DNA of 64,000 nucleotides from Tropicimonas marinistellae. Its GTDB lineage: Bacteria; Pseudomonadota; Alphaproteobacteria; Rhodobacterales; Rhodobacteraceae. Below the pieces are notes generated by a model. The model worked only from the letters and a program-made list of their open reading frames with translations. It did not search any database and had not been told where the DNA came from. Position numbers and translations under genes: made by a program. Position 1 is the first letter of the stretch; every line of letters starts with the position of its first letter. The stretch is taken from positions 1 through 64,000 of the forward strand of contig NZ_LNCI01000015.1 of NCBI RefSeq assembly GCF_001509585.1, read 5' to 3'. Below, in pieces: positions 16,288 through 64,000 of the stretch.

Positions 16288-17295
16288 ATGAAGATTTTGC
16301 TTGGAACGGTCACGGGGGCCGCGATGCTTATTGCCGGGGCCGGTTCGATGGCCCTGGCGCAGGAATATCCCTATCGAGACATAACCACGGCGGTGGTCTG
16401 GGGTGCCGGAGGGGGCACCGACACCATCAACCGGATGATCATGGCGGAGATGGAGAAGCATCTCCCGGTGTCGATCAACGTCATCAACCAGACGGGCGGT
16501 GTCGCCGGGTCGAACGGCATGGTCTACGCGATGAACCAGGCTGACGATGGCTATACGCTCGTCGGGCTGTCCGAATCTAACGTGACGGCGGCCGTGCAGG
16601 GTGGTTGGGACAAGAAGTTCGACACCTGGTACCCGTTCATCGTCGGCGGTTCGCCAGACCTCATTTCCGTGCCCGCCAACAGCCCGTACGGCACTCTGGA
16701 AGACCTGGTCGATGCCGCCAAGGCGGACCCGGGAAGCATCCCGGCAGCGGCGTCGGGTGCGGGGTCGATTCATCACCTGAACCTGCTGGCCATCGAGAAG
16801 GGTGCCGGCGCGCAGTTCAAGTTCGTGCCCTACCAGGGCTCCGCGCCCGGTCAGGAGGCGGCGATCGCGGGCGAGGTGGCACTGGTCGTGACCTCGTTGG
16901 CGGAGCAGGCGCCGCTTATCGAGGGCGGGCAGTTGAAACCCCTCGCGATGCTTACGCCGGAAAGCGCCGAGATTGCCGGGATGACCGTGCCGTCAGCATT
17001 CGACATCTATGACGGGCTGGATGCCTACCTGCCGCTCAAGCAGGCCATCGGCTTCGCGGTGCACAATTCCGCGTCCGACGAGGTGAAGGCCAAGCTGACC
17101 GAAGCGTTCGACGCGGCGATGGCCGGCGACGCGGTGGCGGAGTGGGCCAAGGTCAACAACTACGACATCGGCGGCCAGTCCGGCGAGGAGGCGCAGGCCT
17201 TGTTCTCCACCCTTGAGAGCAACTTCGCCTACACGCTTCAGGAGCTTGGTGTCGCGACGGTCGATCCGGCATCGCTCGGCATCGAGAAGCCCTGA
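16288..17295 (+). CDS. tctC: TTT family solute-binding protein TctC
   Basis: A 335-residue periplasmic receptor of the tripartite tricarboxylate transporter (Bug/TctC) family. A signal peptide ends at about residue 24 (GSMALA/QEYPY). The mature protein has the family pattern VVWGAGGGTDTINRM, NVINQTGGVAGSNG and SGAGSIHHLNLLAIE. The ATG at 16288 has GGGAGGAGG six bases ahead. It is the first of a long plus-strand operon and should bring a carboxylate or sugar acid to TctAB. The substrate is inferred from the downstream OtnC/OtnK genes. Confidence 0.93.
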   Translation: MKILLGTVTGAAMLIAGAGSMALAQEYPYRDITTAVVWGAGGGTDTINRMIMAEMEKHLPVSINVINQTGGVAGSNGMVYAMNQADDGYTLVGLSESNVTAAVQGGWDKKFDTWYPFIVGGSPDLISVPANSPYGTLEDLVDAAKADPGSIPAAASGAGSIHHLNLLAIEKGAGAQFKFVPYQGSAPGQEAAIAGEVALVVTSLAEQAPLIEGGQLKPLAMLTPESAEIAGMTVPSAFDIYDGLDAYLPLKQAIGFAVHNSASDEVKAKLTEAFDAAMAGDAVAEWAKVNNYDIGGQSGEEAQALFSTLESNFAYTLQELGVATVDPASLGIEKP

Positions 17296-29613: not shown

Positions 29614-29689
29614 TGGCAGGGGCAGCAGGGTTCGAACCCGCGACCTACGGTTTTGGAGACCGTCGCTCTACCAGCTGAGCTATACCCCT
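29614..29689 (-). tRNA. tRNA-Trp (CCA)
   Basis: A 76-base tRNA on the minus strand. Acceptor AGGGGTA/TGCCCCT, discriminator G, encoded CCA at 29614-29616. The anticodon loop CTCCAAA gives anticodon CCA. D arm TAGCTCAGCTGGTAGAGC and T arm GCGGGTTCGAACCCTGC are standard. Confidence 0.97.
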
Positions 29690-57815: not shown

Positions 57816-58738
57816 GTCGGCGCCCTTCGGCTGATGGCCGAGGTTCCCCTTCCGCTGGGCGGACTTATCCCACGGCCTCTGTGACAGAGATGCCGAGCGC
57901 GGTGTCGTCGTTGAGGACGGCTGTGCGCACCCGTGCCTCGCCTGCCGACAGACGCCGGATCGGCGCGGCTGCAGGCGAAGCGTCCCAGGTGGACCGCAGC
58001 GGTCGCACACCACCAGCGATTTGCAGAATAAGGTTCGCAGCACGGGCATTCGTTCCGGGTTGGACCAAGTGTCTTCTCGGTGAAGTCGCGACGAACAGCA
58101 GATTGGATGGCGCGACGGCCATTGGTACTCCGTCAAGCGCATGCCGCCGTTCTCCACCCGTCAGAGGACCCAAATGGACCGGCACTGCATTCGCGCTCTT
58201 CGTACGCAGCCGTCGCTCTCAGTCGCGCGCGTCAGTAGTGAGCCAAGACGGATTGCATCCATTCGCATCCGATTGCATACAATGTCTTCGGACTCCTGGT
58301 TGCGGGCCAAATTGGTGGGGTCAGATCGGATCATACTCGCCCAATGCAAAGCGGATTGGCCTATGAGCTGCTTGATGAGTTCTCACGTTCCGGCATTTGT
58401 TGCCCGGGCAAGCGCGTGAGGAACGGCGACAAAGCAGAGCACCGTCTGCGCATTGGCGCGGCTATCCGAACTTTCGCAAGGTCGGAAACCGTTGGGCGCT
58501 TTGATAGGCGTGTCATCTTCGACCGAGTTGTTGCGCCTTTTGAGGCACGGCTTGCGCCGGTCAACGAACTCGCCGGACCAGTCGACGTGTTTGACGGGTT
58601 GTTGGTTGCTGGGTTTGACGCACCCAAGGTGGCGCGCTTGGATCCGAGATTTCACCGAGGATTCGTCACGGCTGCGGGGAGAACAGCCGCGACGCATAGA
58701 GAGACGAACCCTCAGCACCGACCAGGATGCCTCGGCGA
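57816..58738. other. 0.9-kb gap with no supported gene
   Basis: I see no gene I can name. At 58250-58283 there are two direct GATTGCAT units, the second forming the near-palindrome ATTGCATACAAT (58272-58283), a plausible GntR-type operator for the AbrB/GGT/TctC operon. The rest may be decayed DNA next to the truncated AsnC gene. Confidence 0.4.
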
Positions 58739-59770
58739 ATGACCCAGCAAACGAAACGGAAACTGGCATCCTTTGCAATTGCGCTGCTCGGTGTTGCAGT
58801 GTTCCGATTCCTGGGGCTACCACTTCCCTGGCTCCTTGGACCCATGTTCGCTTGCCTCTTGGCCGCATTTGCGGGGGTGCGCCTTGCTGGCGCTCCACGG
58901 ATCAGCACGGCGATGCGGACTGTACTGGGCGTCGCCGTTGGAGCGTCCCTCACGCCATCCCTCGTCGATCAGATCGGCGAGATGGTTCTTTCCATTGCCC
59001 TGATCCCGCCGTTCATTCTGTGCATCGGATTGACCGGGTATCCGTATTTTCGGCGGCTTTGGGGCTTCGACCCGGCCACGAGTTACTACGCGTCGATGCC
59101 AGGGGGATTGCAGGACATGCTCGTTTTTGGCGAAGAAGCCGGAGGTTCGCCCCGCGTTCTGAGCCTTGTCCATGCCACCAGAATCCTCGTGATCGTCACC
59201 GTGTTGCCCTTGATCCTGAGTTGGGCACTCGACGTTCCGTTGGATCGCCCACCAGGGGAACCGGCTGCCGATATTCCCGCGTTGGAGTTGGTGTTGATGG
59301 TCGTGATTGCCATTGCCGGATGGTGGGGGGCGAAAGCTGTTGGGCTCTTTGGCGCGTCCATTCTCGGACCCTTGATCCTCGCGGCGATTGCGAGTTTGAC
59401 AGGTGTTATTCACCATCGCCCGCCAGTCGAGGCGATCCTTGCGGCACAGTTTTTCATTGGGGCGACGGTCGGGGTGAAATATGTCGGTATCACCGTCGGT
59501 GAACTTCGCCGGGTCGTTCTGGCCGCGTTGGGATACGTTGCGATCCTGTCGGTTCTTTCCGCGATATTTGCGAGCATCGCCTATTGGGCTGGCTTCGCGC
59601 CAATGACCGAAGCGATCCTTGCATTTTCACCTGGTGGGCAGGCTGAGATGGCGGTGCTTGCAATCGTGGCGGGAGCCGACATTGCCTATGTCATTACCCA
59701 TCACCTCGTGCGGATGGTAACAGTCATCGTGGGGGCTCCGATTGTGCAGAGATCGAAGTCGGACCCATGA
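58739..59770 (+). CDS. AbrB family membrane transporter
   Basis: A 343-residue membrane protein with two related halves (residues 1-165 and 175-340), matching the AbrB/putative ammonia monooxygenase family. Segments include LPLPWLLGPMFACLLAAF and the second-half GPLILAAIASLTG, and the signature FSPGGQAEMAVLAIVAGAD. Such genes are common beside TTT transporters. The start may be 58739 or 58727. Confidence 0.85.
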   Translation: MTQQTKRKLASFAIALLGVAVFRFLGLPLPWLLGPMFACLLAAFAGVRLAGAPRISTAMRTVLGVAVGASLTPSLVDQIGEMVLSIALIPPFILCIGLTGYPYFRRLWGFDPATSYYASMPGGLQDMLVFGEEAGGSPRVLSLVHATRILVIVTVLPLILSWALDVPLDRPPGEPAADIPALELVLMVVIAIAGWWGAKAVGLFGASILGPLILAAIASLTGVIHHRPPVEAILAAQFFIGATVGVKYVGITVGELRRVVLAALGYVAILSVLSAIFASIAYWAGFAPMTEAILAFSPGGQAEMAVLAIVAGADIAYVITHHLVRMVTVIVGAPIVQRSKSDP

Positions 59771-59782
59771 AGCGATGAAACA

Positions 59783-61585
59783 ATGACAATGGACATACCC
59801 TTCACCACGCGGCCTGAAATCACCGGGACATTCGGCGTTGTCGCCTCGACGCACTGGATTGCCTCGGCCGTGGGGATGAAACTGCTCGAGGCTGGCGGAA
59901 CGGCATTCGATGCGGCTGTTGGCATGGGGTTCACGCTCAACGTCGTGGAGCCACATCTGAACGGGCCGCTGGGCGACATGCCAGCGCTGATCTGGCCGGA
60001 AGGCATGCCGGAGCCGACCGTGGTATGCGGGCAGGGCGTTGCGCCCGCGGATGCGACGATCGACAATTACCGTTCGCAGGGATTGGATCTCGTGCCGGGC
60101 TCGGGGCTTCTGGCCACGGTTGTTCCCGGCGCCTTTGACGCCTGGATGCTGATCTTGCGGGATCATGGGCGTTTGTCCTTGCGGGACGTTCTTGAGCCGG
60201 CCATTCATTACGCGGAACATGGTCATCCCATGCTGGCAAGCGCGGCGAACGTTATTGATGGCTTGTCCGAAGCCTTCCGAAAAGAGTGGCCCACATCTGC
60301 GGCGGTCTGGCTGCCCGGAGACAGGGCGCCCGCGCCGGGCGCCCTTTTCAGAAACCCGCAGCTCGCCCGGTTCTGGCAAAACCTCCTTGCCGAGGCAGAA
60401 ACGAAATCCGGCCGCGTTGCGCAGATCGAGGCCGCCCGGCGCGCCTTTCGAGAGGGGTTCGTCGCTGAGGCCATTGATGCGTTTCTTCGAGATGCCTGCG
60501 TCATGGATTCCACCGGAGAGCGTCGCCGCGGCGTGCTGACTGGGCAGGATATGGCGAGCTGGGAGGCGGCGTACGAGCCCGCCCTTTCGGTCGATCATCA
60601 CGGGTGGACAGTCTGGAAATGCGGTCCCTGGAGCCAGGGGCCTGTGCTGCTTCAGGCGTTGAGACTTCTCGAAGGGGACAGCATCGCTGGTTTAGATCCG
60701 CAAGGTGCGGATTTCGTCCATCTGCTGACGGAGTGTCTGAAGCTTGCATTCGCCGACCGTGAGACCTACTTCGGCGATCCGAAATTCAGCAACATCCCCA
60801 TGCAACAGCTGCTCTCGCGCGACTATGGACGGCAAAGGCGGCAGCAAGTCGAAGCGGTTGCGTCGGTTTCGCAACGTCCCGGACGGATTGCCGGTTTCGA
60901 GCGGCAGGCCGAGGCGTTTCTGCGCCGATCTACGCTGGCGATCGATTCCGCAGTCGGCGTCGGTGTCGGCGAGCCGACGATGGCGCACCTTTCCGAGAGG
61001 CAGGGTGACACGGTTCATATCGATGTAATCGACCGTTGGGGCAACATGGTCTCGGCAACGCCTTCCGGTGGATGGCTGCAATCCTCGCCCGTCGTTCCGG
61101 GCCTCGGCGTGCCGCTCAACAGCCGGGCGCAGATGTTCTGGCTGGAGGAGGGTTTGCCCACGTCCCTGGCGCCCGGCCGCCGCCCCAGAACGACATTGTC
61201 ACCGTCGATGGCTATGGGTCCGGATGGCGCCCGCCTTGCCTTTGGCACGCCCGGTGGCGACCAGCAGGATCAATGGCAACTGGCGTTCCTGATGCGGCTG
61301 ATCCATCACGGCATGAACCTTCAGCAGGCAATCGACGCGCCCCTGTTCCACACGGCGCACCTTCAGGCGAGTTTCTACCCGCGGGCGAGCCGACCCGGCC
61401 ATCTGATGATGGAGCCAGCCTTCAACGAGGCAGTTGTCGACGACCTGCGCCGTCGCGGCCATGATATCGAGGTGTCTTCACCCTGGGCCATCGGCAGATT
61501 GACGGCAACACGGCGCGATGCGGGCGGGCTGCTCGGCGCCGCGGCGACGCCGAGGCTGATGCAGGCCTATGCCATCGGAAGATAG
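59783..61585 (+). CDS. Gamma-glutamyltransferase family protein
   Basis: A 600-residue Ntn-hydrolase of the GGT family, made as a proenzyme that cleaves before its nucleophile. The N-terminal AVGMGFTLNVVEPHLNGPLG region binds substrate. The nucleophile is probably T410 in GDTVHIDVIDRWGNMVSATP, which starts the small subunit. No signal peptide is seen, so it is cytosolic, unlike E. coli GGT. Such cytosolic relatives are often cephalosporin acylase-like or act on small gamma-glutamyl or amide compounds. Confidence 0.87.
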   Translation: MTMDIPFTTRPEITGTFGVVASTHWIASAVGMKLLEAGGTAFDAAVGMGFTLNVVEPHLNGPLGDMPALIWPEGMPEPTVVCGQGVAPADATIDNYRSQGLDLVPGSGLLATVVPGAFDAWMLILRDHGRLSLRDVLEPAIHYAEHGHPMLASAANVIDGLSEAFRKEWPTSAAVWLPGDRAPAPGALFRNPQLARFWQNLLAEAETKSGRVAQIEAARRAFREGFVAEAIDAFLRDACVMDSTGERRRGVLTGQDMASWEAAYEPALSVDHHGWTVWKCGPWSQGPVLLQALRLLEGDSIAGLDPQGADFVHLLTECLKLAFADRETYFGDPKFSNIPMQQLLSRDYGRQRRQQVEAVASVSQRPGRIAGFERQAEAFLRRSTLAIDSAVGVGVGEPTMAHLSERQGDTVHIDVIDRWGNMVSATPSGGWLQSSPVVPGLGVPLNSRAQMFWLEEGLPTSLAPGRRPRTTLSPSMAMGPDGARLAFGTPGGDQQDQWQLAFLMRLIHHGMNLQQAIDAPLFHTAHLQASFYPRASRPGHLMMEPAFNEAVVDDLRRRGHDIEVSSPWAIGRLTATRRDAGGLLGAAATPRLMQAYAIGR

Positions 61586-61751
61586 ATGAGAGATTTTCAT
61601 TAATAGGCCAAAAACTAGAATTTGTTGGCATTGGATTGGAATGCCATCCTCCTGAGGCAACAAGCGGAAAGGGCAAGAAACGCGGCCCGGTCAATATCCG
61701 CGATTGCATCAAAGCCGGTTTGGCAATGGGCCGGCACATTGGGAGGACACA

Positions 61752-62849
61752 ATGACCAATCGGCGACCGGCTGCCTTCGGCGGCCTGCTTCTTTCTGCAT
61801 CCATAATCGCAGGCGCGACATCGGCAACTGGCGATGGGCTCGATCTGAGCGGCCAGACGGTAGAATTCGTCATTCCCTTCTCGGAATCCGGTGGTTCGGC
61901 GAAATGGGCGAACTTTTTTGCGCCGCTGCTGAGCGAGGCGCTGCCCGGTAATCCCACGGTGGTCGTGAAATACATGCCGGGGGCAGGGTCCACCAAGGGC
62001 GCGAACTGGTTCCAGGACCAGGAGTACGAGGATGGAACACTGGTTTTCGGCTCCTCTGGATCGACGCAGTTTCCCTACCTTCTCGGCGATCCCCGTGTGA
62101 AGTATGAGTACAGCGACTGAAATGTCGTTCTTGCTTCGGGCACGGGTGGCGTCGCTTTCCTTCCGCCCGATCTCGCTGAAAAGGTGGATGGGCTCGACGC
62201 CTCCGGGTTGGCCGATACGGATTTCATCTGGGGCAGCCAGGGGGCGACCCGGTTGGATCTCGTGCCACTTCTGGCATGGGAAATGCTTGGCATGTCGGTT
62301 GAGCCCGTGTTCGGCATCAAGGGGCGGGGCGATGGCCGGCTGATGTTCGAACGTGGTGAGGCCAATATCGACTACCAGACCTCAGCCGCCTACTTGAAGG
62401 GTGTGGTGCCGCTGGTCGAGCAGGGCGATGCCGTGCCGATGATGACCTGGGGTGCATTGGATGGCGATGGCAACGTTGTCCGCGACCCGACATTTCCCGA
62501 TGTGCCGTCCTTCAAGGAAGTCTGCGAAGCGACACCTGCCTGCGAGACGTCAGGCGAGGCCTGGGATGCTTGGAAGGCGTTCATGATCGCGGGCTTCCCG
62601 GCTCAGAAGATGGTGTTCCTGCCCAATGGTGCACCGCAGGAGGCGATCGATACGTATACCGTCGCATTCGACGCCGTACTGGCGCGGGAGGATTTTGCCG
62701 AACTGAGCGAGGCGACGCTCGGCATCTATCCGCAGATGACTGGCGAAGCGGCCAGGAAAACGCTGACGCTCGGGACTGTCGTGAACGACGACGCAAAGGC
62801 GTTCGTCCAGAACTGGCTCAAGGAACGCTACGGCGTCGAACTGAATTGA
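61752..62849 (+). pseudogene. TTT solute-binding protein (TctC) with an internal TGA
   Basis: The frame starts at ATG 61752 (GGGAGG ahead), with a signal peptide ending near SATG and the Bug/TctC start TVEFVIPFSESGGSAKWANF. At 62118-62120 it meets TGA in KYEYSD-stop-NVVLASGTGG, and then continues in the same frame without any other stop to TGA at 62849, giving the full remaining receptor (WGSQGATRLDLVPLLAWEML, ending WLKERYGVELN). A single base change from TGG (Trp) would restore 365 residues. The cause may be a recent nonsense mutation, a sequencing error or recoding. Confidence 0.88.
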
Positions 62850-62912
62850 TGGTACTGCCCGCTGCGACTGGCATCGTGGCGGGCAGAAACCGTTCACGAG
62901 AGAGATCCGTTC

Positions 62913-64000
62913 ATGGAGCTTCTGTCGACCGCCCTTCCCGCGCTGGGCGACGCTTTCGGCTTGATCCTGCACCCGCAGCAATTGGCATTCCTCGTGCTGG
63001 GTGTTCTGTTGGGCTTGTCCGTCGGGGTCTTCCCCGGTCTCGGCGGCATTGCCGGCTTGTCGCTGGTGTTACCGTTCATGTTCGGCATGGAACCCGTCTC
63101 GGGGCTTGCGCTGATGGTCGGGCTGATCGCCGTGATCCCGACATCGGACACGTTTGCCTCCGTTCTCATGGGCATCCCGGGGTCTTCGGCAAGCCAGGCG
63201 ACAGTGCTGGACGGCTTTCCACTGGCAAAGAAGGGCGAGGCGGCACGCGCGCTCTCGGCGGCATTTGTCTCCTCCCTTTTTGGCGGGTTGCTCGGTGCGA
63301 GCGTGCTCACGTTCTTCATTCTGATCGCGCGCCCGCTCGTTCTGGCGTTCGGTCTGCCAGAAATGCTGATGATCACCCTTTTGGGGCTGTCGATGGTGGC
63401 CATTCTGGCGGGACGGATTCCGCTCAAGGGCGTGGCAGCCGCCGGTCTGGGGCTCATGGTGGGAACGATTGGTGAGGCGGGTGCAGGGGGAAGCCTGCGC
63501 ATGGCAACCTATGACATCCCCTACCTGATCGACGGGCTGTCACTGGTGGTCGTGGGCCTTGGCATTTTCGCGGTGCCTGAGATCGTCGCGCTCCTGCGTC
63601 GCGATCAAGCCATCTCCCGTAGCGGCGCGCTCGGCTCAGGTTGGGTTCACGGCATTCGGCACTGGTTGGCAAATATCTTCCTGTCCATTCGCTGTTCGAT
63701 CATCGGTGTGATCGTAGGCGTCATTCCGGGGCTTGGCGGCTCGGTCGTGGACTGGATCGCTTATGGGCACACGGTGCAGTCGGCCAAGGACAAAACCGCC
63801 TTCGGCTCCGGCGACATCCGCGGCGTGATCGGCCCGGAAAGCTCGAACAACGCCAAGGAGGGCGGCGGGCTTGTACCCACGCTGATCTTCGGCATACCCG
63901 GCTCGGGTTCAATGGCGATTTTTCTGGGCGGGCTGGGGCTGGTTGGCTATGACGCCGGGCCACAAATGATCCGAAACGATCTGGATGTGACCTATACGAT
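62913..64000 (+). CDS. tctA: TTT large permease subunit TctA (partial, runs off the edge)
   Basis: An open frame from ATG at 62913 to the window end (362 residues). TctA signatures are present: SVGVFPGLGGIAGLSLVLPF, IPGSSASQATVLDGFPLAKK, and the second GVIPGLGGSVVDWIAYGHTV, PESSNNAKEGGGLVPTLIFG and IPGSGSMAIFLGG. No tctB gene lies between tctC and tctA; it may be downstream beyond the edge or fused. It pairs with the split tctC. Confidence 0.93.
   Translation, partial: MELLSTALPALGDAFGLILHPQQLAFLVLGVLLGLSVGVFPGLGGIAGLSLVLPFMFGMEPVSGLALMVGLIAVIPTSDTFASVLMGIPGSSASQATVLDGFPLAKKGEAARALSAAFVSSLFGGLLGASVLTFFILIARPLVLAFGLPEMLMITLLGLSMVAILAGRIPLKGVAAAGLGLMVGTIGEAGAGGSLRMATYDIPYLIDGLSLVVVGLGIFAVPEIVALLRRDQAISRSGALGSGWVHGIRHWLANIFLSIRCSIIGVIVGVIPGLGGSVVDWIAYGHTVQSAKDKTAFGSGDIRGVIGPESSNNAKEGGGLVPTLIFGIPGSGSMAIFLGGLGLVGYDAGPQMIRNDLDVTYT

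Follow-up and report, generated by a model that had tools for sequence, protein, structure and literature searches.

A single in-frame TGA in a tctC-type receptor gene of Tropicimonas marinistellae

The interrupted frame and its receptor family

Given that a reading frame near the end of the 64,000-nt stretch of Tropicimonas marinistellae DNA analysed here (contig NZ_LNCI01000015.1, positions 1 to 64,000; referred to as the window) is crossed by one stop codon, we asked whether this codon marks a natural gene end, an error in the sequence, a recoded position or a mutation that has broken the gene. The first-pass annotation had described a TTT-type receptor gene that is intact but for one lone TGA, and both the reading of the frame and the alignment of a homologous protein uphold this description. 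The disrupted tctC-type solute-binding receptor gene occupies 61752..62849 (coordinates here refer to the forward strand unless stated otherwise) and runs from ATG 61752 to a natural TGA stop at 62847..62849, where the homologues end as well; in the 32 listed homologues, the open frame ends at most two codons from the end of the match. Its 366 codons, natural stop counted, contain a single internal stop, the premature TGA at 62118..62120, which is codon 123 (GAC TGA AAT). The alignment of a homologous protein of 337 aa (L031) covers window 61839-62843 with 87% identity and contains a single TGA and no frameshift. The claim that the frame runs without a shift and is interrupted only at 62118-62120 is hence confirmed over its whole length by the frame itself and from 61839 onward by the alignment, which leaves out the first 29 codons. 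Ahead of the ATG lies a motif resembling a ribosome-binding site (GGGAGGA, 61741..61747), and the N-terminus looks, by eye, like a signal peptide. Translation ending at the TGA would give an N-terminal fragment of 122 aa (61752..62117), and downstream of the stop an open frame of 221 aa extends from the first possible restart, GTG 62184, to the natural end (62184..62849).

The window gene is predicted, chiefly from the fold of its close homologue, to encode a divergent TctC/Bug-type (TTT) receptor. The Bug/TctC identity proposed earlier is strengthened by this fold but needs to be qualified, as the Pfam TctC model misses the window protein and the subfamily is divergent. Specifically, neither Pfam (E up to 1) nor NCBIfam (E up to 0.01) returned a call for the window protein with an X at the stop, and the L031 protein was not matched by Pfam TctC (PF03401) either, while at E up to 1 the same model matches 13 of the 32 homologues, the best at 1.6e-9. 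A profile of the 32 homologues searched against the PDB (E up to 10) found five sequences with weak E values (0.002 to 0.13), all of them TTT receptors. Four are recognisable by their names; the fifth, 2DVZ, is given as BugE in a review table that places both 2DVZ and 5OEI among the TTT receptors (PMC5812351). The fold was predicted for the L031 protein, standing in for the window product, with a mean pLDDT of 92.7 from a 32-row alignment; it is two-lobed, and its 17 best PDB rows, which come from 11 entries and have Foldseek E values of 1.1e-13 to 1.1e-9, are TTT receptors, for all but three rows by title or by the review table (2DVZ, 5OEI). These three rows are the Ideonella terephthalate-binding protein, which we take to belong to the TTT receptor family. 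The solved TTT receptors BugD (2F5X), Bug27 (2QPQ), MatC (6HKE) and TphC (7NDR) have a fold like that of the L031 homologue, although solved receptors and homologue share 12-18% identity. TTT receptor genes also adjoin a tctA-type permease gene, as the window gene does, but the window gene is interrupted. The genome contains 10 other TctC-family receptors, recognised by PF03401, and no second member of the window gene’s own subfamily was found in it. Apart from the interrupted gene, the window itself has a TctC-family receptor gene at 16429-17166 that is recognised by Pfam and has no internal stop.

Codon 123 and the rest of the gene among relatives

The first-pass annotation had suggested asking homologues whether a Trp is conserved at the interrupted codon, and this is what they display: among 109 homologous loci (L002-L110, drawn from two overlapping collections, with some genomes counted twice), column 123 holds Trp in 106, Phe in two, Tyr in one and a stop in none. 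Since the homologues run straight through this column, the TGA at 62118 is neither a chance occurrence nor the natural end of a shorter gene, and the latter possibility, which had been raised together with the original claim, is ruled out. The loci with names nearest to the window gene are mostly from Alphaproteobacteria, many of them presumably Rhodobacterales judging by name. A plasmid search with window 58700-63998 gave 144 records, of which the 20 shown have about 71-73% identity and three reach 80-90%; none of the 144 covers 80% of the query.

The stop is not shared by any of the related genomes searched either. The L031 protein was searched against 394 family genomes at E up to 1e-40, which gave matches in 108 of them (the window’s own genome included) and 127 match rows by hand count; no internal TGA is present in the other 126 rows. 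Lesions of other kinds do occur: the homologue of genome G280 (L165, G280:C217:3000-5000) is interrupted by a TAG in the column that corresponds to window codon 289, and that of G298 (L166, G298:C18:165800-167700) is split over two frames, with the switch around query residues 189-195. A second copy in G086 is cut by a contig end and is not broken. Because the window TGA, the G280 TAG and the G298 frame break all lie at differing places, the lesions are private and scattered, which is the pattern expected of occasional gene loss. This receptor family shows occasional independent lesions, which may be biological or technical.

Apart from its stop, the window gene bears little sign of decay. Conservation was assessed in the 97 of 109 homologues with at least 65% identity, leaving out column 123. 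A conservation of at least 97% is reached by 125 columns, and the window gene deviates at one of them (Ile to Val at 242), which is within the range of the intact homologues (0.92 deviations on average); among the 186 columns that reach at least 90%, it deviates at three. Further stops, frameshifts and wider loss of conserved residues were not found, the gene showing one stop and one deviation in 125 columns, which means that any functional loss is recent. Under the assumption that selection is gone, the neutral divergence since any loss has a 95% upper bound of about 1.7% (1.4-2.0% across four thresholds). Decay as scant as this would therefore fit either a very recent loss or no loss at all, and would be unexpected in an old pseudogene. 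The part behind the stop, compared with ten homologues, has pN of 0.10-0.16 and pS of 0.60-0.83, like pairs of intact homologues, and NG86 dN/dS of 0.07-0.14 against nine of the ten, the tenth being saturated; given that synonymous differences are near saturation, the constraint seen here is mostly older than any recent mutation, and the comparison dates nothing.

Competing explanations for the TGA

The split gene is a correct but ordinary finding: most likely a mutation has recently broken the gene, or else the sequence contains an error, rather than a new decoding trick being at work. Among the individual explanations, we regard it as probable that a recent nonsense substitution at the conserved Trp codon 123 has produced a null or leaky tctC-type allele; both the reality of the TGA base and the null or strongly reduced state of the allele are inferred here. 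Under this explanation, the Trp codon would have changed to TGA recently, in the sequenced strain, and translation would mostly halt after 122 residues, leaving a fragment in which two thirds of the protein are missing and which would bind no substrate, so that the adjoining permease would have no receptor of its own. Misreading of UGA by tRNA-Trp at its ordinary low level would restore at most a little full-length receptor; a trace of it is likely, since a study with E. coli reporters found UGA to be the leakiest stop, mostly misread as Trp (PMC11126739). There are parallels for such a state. According to a review of these transporters, four of six genomes without a full tctC have a truncated tctC near tctA (PMC5812351), which resembles the present locus in combining a broken receptor gene with a seemingly intact permease gene, although the passage in question mentions these cases without their lesions. 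In-frame stops are described as widespread in bacterial genes and as persisting briefly (PMC7918605), and the genes treated there have one nonsense codon with constraint on both sides, as in the window gene. However, the stops kept in that work are common to at least two species, a choice that excludes artefacts, whereas the window stop occurs in a single genome.

This last point leads to the possibility of a sequencing or assembly error, or of a mutation acquired in laboratory culture, with the gene of the natural population intact. We consider this clearly less probable than a recent substitution, but it retains an appreciable chance. The assembly is a draft of 41 contigs, the stop is absent from the other genomes among the 394 family genomes searched, and the almost undecayed state of the rest of the gene is equally expected from an assembly error. 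Against it, no other true internal stop appeared in the genome’s matches to three families: none in 150 scored ABC-ATPase matches (of 251 first-look candidates), none in the 10 TctC matches, and among 12 TctA matches one TAG at match residue 506, where that gene ends naturally. As far as these tests, which span a small part of the genome, can tell, no richness in errors is visible in the assembly. ABC-ATPase domains are poor in Trp, and the result for this family therefore informs about assembly quality more than about readthrough at Trp codons. A codon-usage survey for split genes in 476 kb gave 34 places, with the known one listed by forcing; this survey is weak, because the known case has a negative 25-codon margin and similar cases would escape it. 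The five places with the highest 25-codon margin among the 33 others turned out, by Pfam, to be ordinary neighbouring genes.

It is tempting to speculate that the gene still works through functional UGA readthrough, in which the near-cognate tRNA-Trp(CCA) would insert Trp and the stop would lower or tune the receptor level. That the gene is conserved both before and after the stop is compatible with functional readthrough as well, the part behind the stop looks constrained, and Trp at column 123 is the very residue that tRNA-Trp would insert. Moreover, TGA is the most error-prone stop in E. coli and is mostly misread as Trp, with 14 of 40 TGA reporters above threshold (PMC11126739), and Belinky et al. 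argue against regarding many of the genes with in-frame stops as pseudogenes, since these may undergo readthrough, readthrough being frequent at conserved in-frame stops (PMC7918605). Nevertheless, we judge functional readthrough to be improbable. The Trp match is weak evidence, since a TGA that arises from a Trp codon by one change necessarily falls at a Trp, the stop is shared by none of the 109 loci or the relatives searched, and the constraint is mostly of older date than any recent mutation. RNA folding behind the stop is unremarkable, with z of 0.24 in the 60 nt that follow it and of -1.83 and -1.75 in two stretches of 100 nt. The tRNA itself (29614..29689, reverse strand) is the sole tRNA-Trp among the 32 of 38 tRNAs read and has the anticodon CCA. 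In E. coli, UGA is read by a tRNA-Trp with a 4-bp anticodon stem, and changes at A9 and G24 of tRNA-Trp are linked to UGA reading (PMC13092985); that system shares with the window gene a TGA at a Trp column, but the tRNA-Trp here has a complete 5-bp stem and, by our own position count, keeps both A9 and G24. Nothing particular to the window gene points to selection for readthrough. A more specific idea, namely that the UGA is a standing low-level switch at which condition-dependent misreading as Trp yields a little full-length receptor and throttles the transporter without abolishing it, while selection preserves the gene, seems less probable still. Should readthrough be demonstrated, the locus would offer a case from nature in which a leaky UGA tunes a transporter.

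Two further explanations have very little to recommend them. One, put forward alongside readthrough in the first-pass annotation, is that the gene makes two polypeptides, an N-terminal one of 122 aa and, by a restart at GTG 62184, a second one of 221 aa; like readthrough, it found no positive support specific to the window gene. The open frame from GTG 62184 to 62849 does exist, but its product would lack the N-terminal third including the putative export signal, no strong ribosome-site-like motif was seen ahead of the GTG, and a single open frame holds both parts in the 109 homologous loci, so that we give this reading hardly any credence. The other is dedicated recoding of UGA, by selenocysteine, by a UGA-reading suppressor tRNA or by genome-wide reassignment, for which only the identity of the codon speaks and which we think has an equally slight chance. 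Genome-wide reassignment is rejected, as TGA terminates the window gene itself and is the commonest stop of gene-like frames (276 of 398 in the 476 kb sampled). Selenocysteine and suppressor-tRNA recoding are rejected too: SelA has no match in the genome, no tRNA-Sec scored above the cut-off (150 of 849 first-look candidates scored), and no UCA anticodon is present in the 32 of 38 tRNA matches read. Five tRNA-Sec matches below the threshold coincide with places of tRNA-Ser (three), tRNA-Gly and tRNA-Cys. For practical purposes, an annotation should show a single disrupted tctC-type gene here instead of two small genes, and uptake of this transporter’s substrate by the strain should not be assumed.

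The surrounding transport locus

The neighbours of the receptor gene had been labelled AbrB, GGT and TctA and described as intact, and their frames are indeed open and carry the corresponding domains. The label AbrB calls for an amendment, as the gene at 58727..59770 has an open frame but is assigned by Pfam to the AbrB-duplication membrane proteins (PF05145) and does not encode a DNA-binding regulator. It is followed by an open gene for a gamma-glutamyltranspeptidase-family protein (PF01019, under the NCBIfam equivalog cut-off) at 59783..61585, and, behind the tctC-type gene, by the start of a TctA-type permease gene (PF01970, E 9.1e-92), whose first 362 codons are in the window (62913..64000). 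The permease frame continues past the window and is open for 670 aa, reaching contig position 64925; judged by its length, this permease may be a TctA-TctB fusion. In the congeneric genomes G004 and G005, a single TGA was reported inside the TctA matches. Downstream of the permease lie a gene above the NCBIfam cut-off for 4-oxalomesaconate tautomerase and then a thiamine-diphosphate enzyme gene, completing the order AbrB-duplication, gamma-glutamyltranspeptidase family, TctC type, TctA type, 4-oxalomesaconate-tautomerase-like and thiamine-diphosphate enzyme (window 58727-64000 and L111 1914-6730).

Across the homologous loci, the constant neighbour is the permease, a relative of which (more than 45% identity) is present in 107 of 109. 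The tautomerase-like gene accompanies at least 67 of the 109, the AbrB gene at least 20 and the transpeptidase gene at least seven, all three counts being minimum values, as the flanks of many loci are short. The recurrence of a tautomerase-like gene near TctC and TctA in these 67 loci hints that the substrate could be a carboxylic acid or a compound of aromatic breakdown. Only a few genes further downstream, a gene for a TAXI-type TRAP receptor and one for a fused TRAP permease are found (L111 10707-14010; contig 71706-75009), which brings two tripartite transporter types close together.
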